Source: an uncultured Clostridia bacterium
Lineage (GTDB): Bacteria; Bacillota; Clostridia; Christensenellales; Borkfalkiaceae
Reading direction: 5' to 3'
Length of the DNA: 64,000 nucleotides
Assembly: GCA_944368065.1 (NCBI GenBank)
Contig: CALVWV010000043.1
Coordinates: forward strand, 37,427-101,426
Shown here one piece after another: positions 5,429 to 64,000 of the stretch. A program made the translations under genes and the position numbers. Below the pieces are notes generated by a model. That model was not told the origin of the DNA. It was given only the letters and a program-made list of their open reading frames with translations, and ran no database searches. Numbering within the stretch: the first letter of the stretch is position 1; each line of letters opens with the position of its first letter.

Positions 5429-5457
5429 TTGACTTTGAAGCGGTGTTCAATTATAAT
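5429..5457 (+). promoter_or_regulatory. Promoter of tRNA-Leu(CAG)
   Basis: TTGACT, a 17-base spacer and a perfect TATAAT, with the predicted start about 7 bases before the mature tRNA 5' end. Confidence 0.8.
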
Positions 5458-5470
5458 ATGTAATGTTTTT

Positions 5471-5553
5471 GCGGATATGGCGGAATTGGCAGACGCGCAG
5501 GTTTCAGGTTCCTGTGGGCGACCGTGCAGGTTCAACTCCTGTTATCCGCACCA
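5471..5553 (+). tRNA. tRNA-Leu (anticodon CAG)
   Basis: A class II tRNA with encoded CCA. The acceptor arms GCGGATA/TATCCGC pair perfectly. The D-arm is TGGCGGAATTGGCAGAC, as in bacterial leucine tRNAs, with a long variable arm and T-loop TTCAACT. The anticodon loop is TTCAGGT, so it reads CUG codons. The last 21 bases, starting at C56, are repeated exactly at 5691-5711. Confidence 0.95.
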
Positions 5554-5590
5554 AAAACAAAGCACAGACTTTTGTCTGTGCTTTGTTTTT
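5554..5590 (+). terminator. Intrinsic terminator after tRNA-Leu(CAG)
   Basis: A long stem built around AAGCACAGAC / GTCTGTGCTT with a TTTT loop and a run of T. It belongs to the repeat: nearly the same terminator follows tRNA-Leu(AAG). Confidence 0.9.
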
Positions 5591-5711
5591 TGTACCGAAA
5601 ATACAGGAGTTGAGGGGAGGGAAGTCGGCGAAATCTATCGCCGACAAAACAGCGGACACCCGCTGTTTTCCGTGCGCCGCGCTCAAGCGGCAACTCCTGT
5701 TATCCGCACCA
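5554..5711 (+). repeat. tRNA-3'-end repeat element A (158 bp)
   Basis: The unit runs from just after the tRNA CCA to a second CCA. In order it holds: the terminator; a left arm ACAGGAGTTG (5603-5612) that is the reverse complement of the host tRNA T-arm 3' strand; a 7-bp hairpin (GTCGGCG/CGCCGAC); a 10-bp hairpin (AAAACAGCGG-ACAC-CCGCTGTTTT); a short CCGC/GCGG hairpin; and the right arm CAACTCCTGT. The right arm runs into an exact 21-base copy of the tRNA 3' end (5691-5711). The outer arms pair, so the whole unit folds as a closed multi-branch structure with a CCA tail. Bases 5596-5701 are identical to 33931-34036. No protein-coding frame is convincing. How it moved is inferred, not seen. Confidence 0.85.
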
Positions 5712-5751
5712 ACAAAAAAGAGGGCAGTTCTTACTGTCCTCTTTTTTGTTG
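5710..5751 (+). terminator. Second terminator, downstream of element A
   Basis: A stem of about 18 bp (AACAAAAAAGAGG / CCTCTTTTTTGTT plus inner pairs) immediately follows the duplicated CCA. It is probably the original terminator of the tRNA gene, displaced by the element. Confidence 0.85.
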
Positions 5752-5800
5752 CGTTATAAATTCGGTTATATAACAAATACAGCTAACATTAAAACTTAAG

Positions 5801-19815: not shown

Positions 19816-19905
19816 GCGGAGATGGCTGAGCGGTTTAAGGCGCACGATTGGAAATCGTGTTACGGTTAACCCCGTACGGAGGTTCAAATCCTCTTCTCCG
19901 CGCCA
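19816..19905 (+). tRNA. tRNA-Ser (anticodon GGA)
   Basis: A class II tRNA with encoded CCA. Acceptor GCGGAGA/TCTCCGC, anticodon stem CACGA/TCGTG with loop TTGGAAA, long variable arm (TACGGTTAACCCCGTA) and T-loop TTCAAAT. It reads UCC/UCU codons. Its last 21 bases, from C56, are repeated exactly at 20090-20110. Confidence 0.95.
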
Positions 19906-20110
19906 AAAAAGGTCAGGTAATTTTTGTTACCTGACCTTTTTTTGATGCTAAGAAAAAGAAGAGGATTTGAGGGTGGGAGGTGCGAGCGGGAGCGAGCAGT
20001 TTGCGCATATTTGCAGGCAACCGGTATTTAAGTCACGCAAACCGAACAGCGGTTACCCGCTGTTCGCCGGGGCGTCTCCGCTAAAGGAACAAATCCTCTT
20101 CTCCGCGCCA
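19906..20110 (+). repeat. tRNA-3'-end repeat element C (205 bp)
   Basis: It has the same design as elements A and B. It begins after the tRNA CCA with a terminator (AAGGTCAGGTAA / TTACCTGACCTT plus T-run). The left arm at 19957-19969 is the reverse complement of the tRNA-Ser T-arm/acceptor strand. A body related to element B2 follows, with the 10-bp hairpin CGAACAGCGG-TTAC-CCGCTGTTCG at 20043-20066. The right arm (20090-20102) pairs with the left over 13 bases and continues into an exact 21-base copy of the tRNA-Ser 3' end with CCA. Here the arms match serine, not leucine, tRNA. No convincing coding frame. Confidence 0.85.
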
Positions 20111-30393: not shown

Positions 30394-30480
30394 GCCGCTG
30401 TGGTGGAATTGGCAGACGCGCTGGACTCAAAATCCTGTGGTAGCGATACCGTATCGGTTCGACCCCGATCAGCGGCACCA
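30394..30480 (+). tRNA. tRNA-Leu (anticodon CAA)
   Basis: A class II tRNA with encoded CCA, acceptor GCCGCTG/CAGCGGC, anticodon loop CTCAAAA (reads UUG), long variable arm and T-loop TTCGACC. It is the only tRNA gene here without a tRNA-3'-end repeat behind it. Confidence 0.95.
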
Positions 30481-33803: not shown

Positions 33804-33888
33804 GCACTCATGGCGGAATTGGCAGACGCGCAAGACTAAGGATCTTGTGGAGCGATCCATGCAGGTTCAACTCCTGTTGAGTGCACCA
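33804..33888 (+). tRNA. tRNA-Leu (anticodon AAG)
   Basis: A class II tRNA with encoded CCA, acceptor GCACTCA/TGAGTGC, a perfect anticodon stem CAAGA/TCTTG and loop CTAAGGA. The anticodon is therefore AAG with A at position 34, rare in bacteria, where A34 (edited to inosine) is usually limited to arginine tRNA. D-arm and T-arm are as in the other leucine tRNAs here. Its last 21 bases are copied exactly at 34026-34046 and again at 34229-34249. Confidence 0.93.
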
Positions 33889-34046
33889 AAAATAAGCACA
33901 GACTTTTGTCTGTGCTATATTTTTTATATACGAAAATACAGGAGTTGAGGGGAGGGAAGTCGGCGAAATCTATCGCCGACAAAACAGCGGACACCCGCTG
34001 TTTTCCGTGCGCCGCGCTCAAGCGGCAACTCCTGTTGAGTGCACCA
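33889..34046 (+). repeat. tRNA-3'-end repeat element B1 (158 bp)
   Basis: It has the same length and plan as element A: a terminator (core GCACAGAC-TTTT-GTCTGTGC); the left arm ACAGGAGTTG; the 7-bp and 10-bp hairpins (33981-34004 for the latter); and the right arm with an exact 21-base copy of tRNA-Leu(AAG) 3' end. Bases 33931-34036 are identical to element A, yet the final acceptor-strand bases are those of the local tRNA, not of tRNA-Leu(CAG). Confidence 0.87.
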
Positions 34047-34249
34047 AAAACAGCAGATGAACAATTATGTTCATCTGCTGTTTTTTTGTCTTGAATAACA
34101 ACAGGAGTTGAGGGTGGAGGCGTGAGCGGAAGCGAACGGTTTGCACGCGGACATAATACCAAAGAGAGAAAAATAGGCAAACTGAACAGCGGACACCCGC
34201 TGTTCACCGGGGCGCGCCGCCAAAGGCGCAACTCCTGTTGAGTGCACCA
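34047..34249 (+). repeat. tRNA-3'-end repeat element B2 (203 bp)
   Basis: A second, different unit in tandem. It starts with a terminator (AAAACAGCAGATGAA / TTCATCTGCTGTTTT plus T-run). The left arm ACAGGAGTTG is at 34101-34110, the hairpin TGAACAGCGG-ACAC-CCGCTGTTCA at 34183-34206, the right arm at 34229-34238, and a third copy of the tRNA 3' 21 bases with CCA ends it. The body is related to element C (shared GAGGGTGGAGG-like start, GAGCGG-AGCGA, and CCGGGGCG after the hairpin). Confidence 0.85.
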
Positions 34250-34312
34250 AAAATACAGGAGTTGAGGGACGAGCACAGATTTCTAAAAACAACGGATGCC
34301 CGTTGTTTTTTT
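34250..34312 (+). repeat. Truncated repeat B3 ending in a terminator
   Basis: A third left arm (ATACAGGAGTTGAGGG) starts right after the B2 CCA, but the body is cut short. It ends at an 11-bp hairpin AAAAACAACGG-ATGC-CCGTTGTTTTT with a T-run. That hairpin looks like a mutated form of the core hairpin now serving as the terminator. Confidence 0.7.
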
Positions 34313-34362
34313 ATGCTCACTTATTTGACCCGAAGAAAAACCAACTAAAATCTAATTGAATC

Positions 34363-44260: not shown

Positions 44261-44289
44261 TTGACTTTACTGCTGTTGCGGCGTATAAT
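44261..44289 (+). promoter_or_regulatory. Promoter of the recombinase-hflX unit (leaderless geometry)
   Basis: TTGACT, a 17-base spacer and a perfect TATAAT, with seven bases to the ATG at 44297. Confidence 0.75.
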
Positions 44290-44296
44290 TTTTTAT

Positions 44297-45358
44297 ATGA
44301 AAAATTCGAATTACTACATTCAGCGAAACAATAAAAATATTGAAACAATCGAACGGCTTCTGAATGAAGAGCTTCCCGCTTTCTGCTTCGATTATTTTGT
44401 GGCAATAGAAAACCAGACGAGCTCGCTTACGCGACTCAACTACGCTCACGACCTTAAAATTTTCTTTTATTATATGCAGGAGCGCGTTTTTCGCGGCAAA
44501 AAGCTTATAAAAGACTTTACTCTGAATGACCTGGAAAGCGTTACCAATACTGATATAGAGTATTTTTTAGGCTTTCTTACACACTATAAATACGGCGAAC
44601 GCGAACATTACTGCAACGAACGGGCAAAAGCCAGAAAACTTTCTTCTGTGAGAGCCATGTTCAAGCATTTTTTCAATAAAGGGCTGATTTCGGTAGATAA
44701 TTCTGCCAAGGTTGCCACCCCTAAGCTCCACGAAAAACCTATTATACGCCTTGAGCAGAACGAAGTTTACGGCATTATTGACGCGGCTGAAAACGGCAGC
44801 GGACTCACAGCGCACCAGATGGCTTATCATGAAAAGAATAAAGTGCGAGACTGCGCTATTTTAATGCTTTTTCTCGGCACGGGAATACGTATAAGCGAGC
44901 TTGTAGGACTCAACAACGAAGATCTGAATTTTGACAATAACTCGTTCATAGTAACCAGAAAAGGCGGCGGAAAATCGATTTTATACTTTGATGCAGACGT
45001 TGCTGCTGCGCTGATGCGCTATCTCGACCAGAAAGAAGAACAGAAACAGCTAAGCCTTGAAGATTCGAATGCCCTCTTCCTCTCCAACAAAAACAGGCGC
45101 ATTACCGTGCGCGCCGTTGAAAATCTGGTGCAGAAATACGCTAAAATAGTTTCTCCGCTCAAAAAAATTTCGCCTCATAAGCTGAGAAGCACTTACGGCA
45201 CACAGCTTTATAAAGCCACGGGCGATATCTACATAGTAGCCGATATCTTAGGGCATAAAGACGTAAACACGACGCGCAAGCATTACGCCGCAATCAGCGA
45301 CGACAACAGGCGTTCGGTTGTGGGAAAAGTAAAACTTGTACGCCCCGAAGACGAATAA
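44297..45358 (+). CDS. Tyrosine recombinase, XerC/XerD-like
   Basis: A 353-residue site-specific recombinase. The N-terminal SAM-like core-binding domain is followed by the catalytic domain with all key residues: Arg198 in GTGIRISEL, the beta-hairpin Lys in RKGGGK, His294 and Arg297 in SPHKLRSTYG, the His of LGHKDVNTT and the nucleophile Tyr330 in KHYAAIS. The length and lack of an arm-binding domain fit Xer proteins that resolve chromosome dimers. The frame reaches upstream to 44261, but that would include the promoter. hflX starts three bases downstream. Whether it also acts on the tRNA-linked repeats is unknown. Confidence 0.9.
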   Translation: MKNSNYYIQRNNKNIETIERLLNEELPAFCFDYFVAIENQTSSLTRLNYAHDLKIFFYYMQERVFRGKKLIKDFTLNDLESVTNTDIEYFLGFLTHYKYGEREHYCNERAKARKLSSVRAMFKHFFNKGLISVDNSAKVATPKLHEKPIIRLEQNEVYGIIDAAENGSGLTAHQMAYHEKNKVRDCAILMLFLGTGIRISELVGLNNEDLNFDNNSFIVTRKGGGKSILYFDADVAAALMRYLDQKEEQKQLSLEDSNALFLSNKNRRITVRAVENLVQKYAKIVSPLKKISPHKLRSTYGTQLYKATGDIYIVADILGHKDVNTTRKHYAAISDDNRRSVVGKVKLVRPEDE

Positions 45359-63740: not shown

Positions 63741-63824
63741 TAAAAAGTAAATATTGAAGTGGCTTATATTAAATAAACTTTGCGGCTTTAGGTTCGGTAG
63801 GATTTCCCCCGCGCTCACTTCCCG

Positions 63825-63998
63825 TCACCGAAGAAGCAGTTTCCTTTTAAGAGTGCGGTCGCACAGTTTCCTCATGCGCAACCGAATCGCCACTGAGTCC
63901 ACACCGTAATCTCTAATACGTTGACAGTCTAGAAGCTTTCCTTGACAGCTGATGCAGGGTTTATCCTCTTTTGCAAAATCAATTTCAAACAGCGATAG
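63825..63998 (-). CDS. C-terminal fragment of an unidentified gene (start beyond window)
   Basis: An open reverse-strand frame enters from the window edge and ends at TGA (63825-63827), giving 57 residues. It has CISCQ and LDCQRIRDYGVDSVAIRLR and ends in a very basic tail (KLCDRTLKRKLLLR). I do not recognise it. A terminator-like hairpin at 63720-63740 would close it. Whether it is truly coding needs the sequence beyond the edge. Confidence 0.4.
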   Translation of the reverse strand, partial: LSLFEIDFAKEDKPCISCQGKLLDCQRIRDYGVDSVAIRLRMRKLCDRTLKRKLLLR

Positions 63999-64000
63999 CT

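Follow-up and report, generated by a model that had tools for sequence, protein, structure and literature searches.

Two tRNA-Leu genes in a 64,000-nt stretch of DNA from an uncultured Clostridia bacterium (the window, by which we mean the whole stretch analysed) are each followed by the same 106 bp, and the question is what this segment is and how it came to lie behind both genes. The two copies, at 5596-5701 and 33931-34036, are identical at 106/106 bases, as the first-pass annotation had reported, and the bases that bound them differ (C or A before the repeat, A or G after it). This is the longest exact direct repeat within the window, the runner-up being 27 nt, and the eight longest listed all consist either of tRNA sequence or of the units described here. 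The folded core proposed earlier is indeed stable, with minimum free energies of -54.4 and -54.2 kcal/mol for the two copies and z scores of -4.97 and -5.08 (200 dinucleotide shuffles).

Both ends of the repeat are related to the adjoining tRNA. The left end of each Leu unit is ACAGGAGTTG, the reverse complement of tRNA positions 56-65, and the right end of the 106-bp segment is CAACTCCTGTT, which is continued at both loci by the acceptor strand of the local tRNA-Leu plus CCA, just as had been noted. The CCA tail ascribed to the core is present, but it is the end of a displaced tRNA 3' copy, the last 21 bases of each unit being a direct repeat of its own tRNA from C56 to CCA. The choice then offered between recent spread and selection on the structure was too narrow, as it missed these arms specific to each host tRNA. 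At the first locus, with all features on the plus strand, tRNA-Leu(CAG) lies at 5471-5553 (ARAGORN; Rfam RF00005), its 56-76 segment at 5533-5553, and a terminator-like hairpin (an inverted repeat) with spacer occupies 5554-5595 between the tRNA CCA and the left arm. The left arm (LEFT, 5603-5612, from sequence reading), a core of the short type A form with hairpins H2, H3 and H4 but without H1 (5613-5690, from the fold and from alignment with covariation) and the right arm (RIGHT, 5691-5711), an exact copy of the last 21 nt of the tRNA, follow in turn. A second terminator-like hairpin stands past the displaced tRNA 3' end at 5712-5751 (inverted repeat arms 5710-5728/5733-5751).

The second locus, also on the plus strand, carries an array behind tRNA-Leu(AAG) (33804-33888, ARAGORN). 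A terminator-like hairpin with spacer (33889-33930) is followed by LEFT (33938-33947), a core identical to 5613-5690 (33948-34025) and RIGHT with the Leu(AAG) acceptor strand and CCA (34026-34046). A further terminator-like hairpin at 34047-34085 (inverted repeat 34046-34063/34068-34085) separates this short type A unit from a complete unit of a second type, B, placed in tandem at 34099-34249 (LEFT 34099-34110, core, RIGHT 34229-34249; identified from repeats and a match to the covariance model R1 described below). After it comes a fragment of a third-type unit at 34255-34316, the left part of type C, with LEFT at 34255-34264, one hairpin and no RIGHT (direct repeats D2 and D3). Another complete type B unit lies on the plus strand at 19958-20110 (R1 match 19958-20103; LEFT 19958-19969, core, RIGHT 20090-20110; 23-nt repeat 19885/20090) behind tRNA-Ser(GGA) at 19816-19905 (ARAGORN), and no unit was found in the 220 bases read downstream of tRNA-Leu(CAA) at 30394. 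The ORFs listed across the two Leu loci (5429-5773 on the plus strand, 33836-34276 on the minus strand) run through the tRNA gene. Because the terminator and spacer ahead of the core are related at the two Leu loci (36/42 bases identical), the repeated part is wider than 106 bp, and because this adjoining region has already diverged, recent copying between the two loci, or gene conversion, is the best account of the identical core.

The repeat is not confined to this strain. A BLAST search found matches in 23/61 genomes, 21 of the 23 within the genus; the two outside it, and some of those inside, are short matches to the tRNA end or to a single hairpin. R1 was built from an alignment of 17 type A units, so that types B and C are under-sampled, and it matches 29/61 relatives, all 29 among the genus's 37 genomes and two of them only near E = 0.008. 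It also matches 15/297 sampled genomes of the order, all in one family and from four genera; eight further genomes of that family in the sample gave no R1 match. A pattern scan of GTDB species genomes returned 24 contigs, every one from Candidatus Coproplasma or uncultured Clostridia. The unit collection was drawn from 144 R1 matches, in 98 sources that contain part, not all, of the R1 hits from the relatives and order searches. The 121 with E up to 6.7e-6 were retained; the 23 weaker matches excluded are mostly opposite-strand overlaps, and a few may be true partial units. The 106-bp core is one of these 121 units from a bacterial family that includes Candidatus Coproplasma. The collection rules out a single segmental duplication, and the two outcomes named beforehand as telling against a repeat family, a duplication limited to one strain and copies elsewhere unlinked to tRNA genes and without compensatory changes, did not materialise, with units found beyond this strain and most copies linked to tRNA.

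At Rfam gathering scores only tRNA matches were obtained at the locus; a known RNA family is thereby ruled out as the identity of the unit, and the first-pass annotation was right that this tRNA-linked family has no named match. Elsewhere in the window, an OLE RNA match (RF01071, 177 bits) lies at 63743-64000 on the minus strand and is cut by the window end. A phage, plasmid or viral origin of the core was also set aside, one 99-nt type A core having no match among phages and plasmids, and three exact patterns (one of them for type B and none for type C) having no match among viral contigs. The literature, searched by title and the start of the abstract and with most subscription journals outside the search, gave no description of such units, and we know of no counterpart to arms suited to each host tRNA.

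The order of parts is the same over the collection: tRNA, terminator-like hairpin, LEFT, hairpin core and RIGHT, with RIGHT repeating the local tRNA from C56 to CCA and LEFT the complement of tRNA positions 56-65, extended in type A to part of the acceptor strand. Units are about 110-150 bp, longer in chimeras, and occur singly or in tandem (more than one model hit at 15/73 tRNA loci). An intact tRNA lies within 1 kb upstream of 93/121 units, at 73 loci (Ser 27, Leu 22, Pro 9, Gly 5, Arg 4, Ala 2, Lys 2, Val 1 and Gln 1), and at 66/73 the first unit begins 44-60 nt past the CCA. The right ends of 78/93 match the last 22 nt of the local tRNA at 19 or more positions. By eye, the 28 units without an intact upstream tRNA are found where contigs end, after the truncated 3' part of a tRNA or at the ends of other islands, and some are unclear. 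Ser and Leu, both tRNAs with a long variable arm, account for 49/73 loci, and a Tyr-like tRNA end missed by the tRNA finder was seen on reading the sequence at L065. The cores fall into type A (H1-H4), the short type A without H1 found in the window, type B, whose left half is different, and type C, found both at the start of chimeric units and dispersed elsewhere. The type C repeat has the form GGACGAG...AACAGCGG...CGAGATGAG...GGTGACC; it occurs away from tRNA genes at L032, L033 and L034, and as the left part of tRNA-linked chimeric units at L019/L053, L050, L178, L182 and L187.

We then asked how closely the arms follow the tRNA behind which they lie. LEFT fits positions 56-65 of the local tRNA at 10/10 in 55/82 units and at 9/10 in 19/82, with a mean fit of 9.52 for the local tRNA compared with 6.83 for other tRNA kinds; 6/82 LEFT arms fit a 10-mer of another tRNA better than the local one. 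Type A LEFT arms also fit the local acceptor strand (67 units; 0/500 permutations score as high), with about 2-5 nt bulged out where T-stem and acceptor stem meet. For type B the permutations do not single out the local acceptor strand (18 units; 161/500), although three more contiguous paired bases are present in 9/18 units. In some units LEFT reaches, by eye, into the complement of CCA, and TGG stands upstream in 13/67 type A units. Each arm was also compared with the tRNA over 780 positions in 78/121 units, excluding 28 without a tRNA, 10 with RIGHT lost and 5 in which LEFT was not found. Under an entry rule that is itself biased towards matching arms (LEFT fit of at least 7/10, RIGHT of at least 15/21), both arms equal the tRNA at 723 positions, LEFT alone is changed at 35 and RIGHT alone at 22, giving 57 one-sided changes and 0 compensated ones. 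Since the changes are one-sided and none is compensated, the fit appears to arise early in the life of each copy and to decay afterwards, and it does not look like ongoing pair-by-pair selection within single copies. Conserved tRNAs and vertical descent could be the source of part of the arm pattern.

The units might be a structured non-coding RNA family that uses the tRNA 3' end in its outer stem, perhaps as a tRNA mimic or a processing regulator, and the compensatory changes in the stems that had been predicted are present: 20/36 stem pairs are changed on both sides in the 17-unit type A alignment. This strong covariation, the conserved loop sequences and the stable fold of the sense strand are all as such an RNA would have them. 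The mismatches tell a different story. Among the consensus pairs of 70 type A units we counted 1978 Watson-Crick, 31 G-U, 23 A-C and 44 other. Scoring G-U and A-C equally, we found 1157 Watson-Crick, 9 G-U and 9 A-C pairs in the strongest internal hairpin of 117 units, compared with 33 G-U and 0 A-C in control terminators at the same loci (n = 66) and 51 G-U and 0 A-C in the acceptor and T-stems of 50 distinct tRNAs (50/51 used, one being without a CCA end). RNA-level selection, plain in the controls, is not visible in the internal hairpins of the units. The tolerance of G-U far above A-C that marks a functional RNA is thus missing from the internal and consensus stems; the sign is opposite in LEFT, where single changes favour G-T over A-C by 14:2, a hint that the outer stem is under some constraint as RNA, and a point for the RNA reading. 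Because the internal hairpins covary and yet have as many A-C as G-U pairs, they look maintained as DNA rather than RNA, and the RNA reading implied earlier is weakened to that extent. A terminator-like hairpin also stands ahead of the first unit, the extension of LEFT into the CCA complement is at odds with a tRNA mimic, which would be expected to leave the CCA free, and the arms are without compensated changes, so that we regard a non-coding RNA as quite unlikely. Of the two strands, the listed one gives the more stable fold in 108/120 units with RNA and 106/120 with DNA parameters, a bias that does not decide between DNA and RNA because both parameter sets favour the listed strand. For covarying repeats in general, the G-U versus A-C count with adjacent tRNA and terminator controls is a cheap discriminator between DNA and RNA hairpins.

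To follow the cores between loci, their arms were removed and a tree was made of 58 type A cores, one per locus. Genome labels require 38 changes on it (shuffled mean 48.1, 0/200 as low), compared with 22 for the tRNA amino-acid labels of the 40 rows that have one (shuffled 24.0, 28/200 as low). On this tree the cores cluster by genome rather than by the amino acid of the tRNA, and therefore cores have passed, by movement or gene conversion, between tRNAs of one genome whose T-arms differ. Occupancy is polymorphic. Several tRNA-Leu(CAG) loci have upstream flanks homologous to that of genome G027 (77.5-78.7% identity). The locus in G027 itself has no unit, whereas G029 carries a single type A unit, G001 three (the last without RIGHT), and G015 and G349 units whose start is type C and whose end is type A. 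A second pair shares 82% identity across the 1487 bases that lead to the tRNA; there a type B unit is present in G025 and none in G340, and the tRNA-adjacent bases are too diverged to place the junction. The flank comparison placed 23/30 tRNA-Leu loci, and among the loci compared no empty/filled pair is conserved up to both junctions; the terminators, as a lineage marker, are too diverged to inform.

Sharing of this kind could come from host-driven copying with no dedicated enzyme, and this is the main rival to the reading that we favour below. The units would spread where short tRNA homologies allow gene conversion or template switching, and polymerase template switching between inverted repeats would refit LEFT and keep the hairpins perfectly paired; homogenisation of arms through template switching has been reported in yeast (PMC8604942). 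The grouping of cores by genome, the contrast between the 106/106 core and the 36/42 terminator region next to it, the near-perfect and strand-symmetric pairing and the lack of any tested enzyme family tied to the units are all in keeping with it. However, a changed arm is not followed by its partner, as the count of one-sided changes above makes clear, and a C56 boundary held across many tRNA kinds, together with the conserved loops, points to a defined reaction. Loop inversions, the other signature of template switching, were not noticed in the H3 loops, read by eye. On balance we consider copying by the host alone rather unlikely.

The reading that we favour, tentatively and with somewhat less than even confidence, is that the units are non-autonomous, tRNA-targeted mini-islands recombined as folded single-stranded DNA by a recombinase acting in trans. 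An inserted unit would consist of the tRNA segment from C56 to CCA, a terminator, LEFT and core. Insertion at the T-loop (boundary 55|56) would give the tRNA gene a new 3' end, leaving the tRNA and its termination intact, with the original tRNA 3' end remaining downstream as RIGHT, and repeated insertion would yield tandem arrays. LEFT would pair with RIGHT on one DNA strand, so that the folded unit would present the tRNA 3' end as a duplex stem with the hairpins on top, and this folded strand would be the substrate of a trans recombinase that recognises tRNA 3' ends, much as attC is for the integron integrase. We infer a non-autonomous mini-island from the combination of a tRNA-island layout, a known attB within a T-loop and an attC-like folded strand. 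In favour of this reading stand the anatomy of the units and their linkage to tRNA genes, the match of both arms to the local tRNA, the polymorphic occupancy, the DNA-like character of the internal hairpins and the sharing of cores inside genomes; the direction of insertion, the single-stranded substrate, the recombinase and the way in which arms come to suit a new tRNA would be its conjectural parts. Against it count the want of an enzyme tied to the units, the G-T excess in LEFT, the listed-strand bias under RNA parameters as well, the six LEFT arms that suit another tRNA better, and the lack, among the loci compared, of an empty/filled pair conserved to both junctions.

These three precedents fit in part. 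Genomic islands of the Islander type at tRNA genes have a regenerated tRNA 3' end on one side and a displaced fragment on the other (PMC4383910), and phage Ms6 provides the precedent for an attB within the T-loop (PMC1762012). The units share with such islands the regenerated tRNA end and the displaced tRNA fragment (the 78/93 right ends above), but they are only about 110-150 bp, have no recognised gene, place similar cores at many tRNAs and carry an inverted arm complementary to the tRNA; a unit of this length is too short to encode an integrase. Moreover, transfer from Leu(CAG) to Leu(AAG) needs a conversion-like step, since both acceptor-strand copies are local whereas a plain island carries its own. 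The integron attC, which occurs in cassette arrays, is palindromic, and one of its strands folds into a stem that includes unpaired bases (PMC3053210). The units resemble attC cassettes in their tandem arrays and in a predicted single-strand stem with unpaired bases. No attC boxes were recognised in them by eye, and their arms carry GTTG...CAAC, of opposite polarity; they differ in having no identified integron integrase and no cargo genes, and in a stem that follows the host tRNA.

Other small elements are also related in part. In CTX-phi, the host XerC/XerD act on a double-stranded site that forms when two inverted sites pair on single-stranded DNA, and the units would be alike in the modelled pairing of two inverted sites on a single strand; the target here is a tRNA end instead of dif, and phage genes are missing. 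The bacterial palindromic repeats REP, BOX and RUP are short, hairpin-forming, non-coding and non-autonomous, as are the units, which are distinguished by tRNA linkage, tRNA-derived arms and a directly repeated tRNA 3' end. Seen as a whole, they are a new form of small palindromic repeats and tRNA islands.

A bolder proposal, somewhat doubtful in our judgement, is that of a self-retargeting DNA hairpin, in which insertion writes the 3' end of the tRNA just entered into both arms of the new copy. One core would then move among tRNAs with different T-arms and match its stem to each. Such an element would have no genes, would borrow its attachment site from the target and would depend on a host recombinase or the replication fork. 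Were the mini-island reading right, the tRNA genes of one family of gut bacteria would carry arrays of tiny mobile hairpins that resemble integron sites without an integron and have attachment arms suited to each tRNA, and they would offer a minimal system both for folded single-stranded DNA recombination at tRNA genes and for how a gene-free element gains a new target specificity.

The mini-island reading calls for an enzyme in trans, and enzyme families were searched in 41 genomes of the genus (integrase-domain, Y1) or in 21 chosen genomes (RVT_1, resolvase, IS110, Cas1, IS91). Integrase-domain proteins occur in 40/41 and serine (resolvase-domain) recombinases in 21/21, and because both are present with and without R1 hits they are neither excluded nor supported. 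By eye, tyrosine integrase counts do not track unit counts; the unit-rich genome G002, with 12 model hits, has a single phage-integrase-domain protein and no match to Y1 transposase, RVT_1 reverse transcriptase, IS110 transposase or Cas1. The genome of the window has three integrase-domain matches. The one in the window, a 365-aa ORF at 44261-45358 on the plus strand, is a tyrosine recombinase closest to XerS (180 bits, cut-off 267) that falls below all listed cut-offs, that for integron integrase included; from reading the sequence, it adjoins an HflX-like GTPase gene. RVT_1 is found in 5/21 genomes and in neither of the carriers G000 and G002, which sets the units apart from retroelements, IS110 transposase in 1/21 and Cas1 in 0/21. 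Y1 transposase is found in 10/41, including the window's own genome, and has no match in the unit-rich G002, G015, G025, G026 and G035, a distinction from IS200/IS605 and from REP elements moved by Y1. Reverse transcriptase, Y1, IS110 and Cas1, with no match in the majority of genomes searched, are rejected as universal helpers. The IS91 search was silent, but so were its 14 control genomes, and it gives no evidence of absence. None of the families searched is tied to the units, and the mobilising enzyme would presumably act in trans.

A non-autonomous transposon moved by a transposase outside the tested families, with a target duplication of about 21 bp (C56 to CCA) and the T-loop GTTC as target motif, would account for two local 21-nt copies, for the GTTC ahead of the boundary in the tRNAs read, and for tandem arrays that look like repeated insertion at one site. 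It leaves the fit of LEFT to the local tRNA unexplained, and with the distribution of Y1 and the lack of Cas1 just described we hold it very unlikely.

The same tRNA ends seem to be used by other islands, since recombinase-like genes run into tRNA-like 3' ends. At L003/L009 (contig C18 of G000), L154 and L168, a recombinase-like gene passes at its 3' end into a tRNA-like end (...GCACCA or similar) directly upstream of units; the gene in G000 has a resolvase-domain match, parts of L154 and L168 are similar by eye, and comparable recombinase/tRNA-like ends were seen by eye at L130, L152 and L166. Such insertions are what one would look for if the units served as decoys or as spare attachment sites, their copied tRNA 3' ends shielding the tRNA or offering islands extra sites. 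Yet an island end that lies upstream of a unit implies that the unit did not divert the island, and LEFT and the core would be superfluous for a decoy, which makes this role highly improbable. A stretch beginning TAATAGCTTGAACTTCTTT... just 3' of tRNA-Leu(CAG) is common to five genomes (L172, L174, L176, L181 and L189), and two contigs stop inside it; from its occurrence in five genomes and these contig ends, it may be a repeated or mobile end or a conserved terminator.
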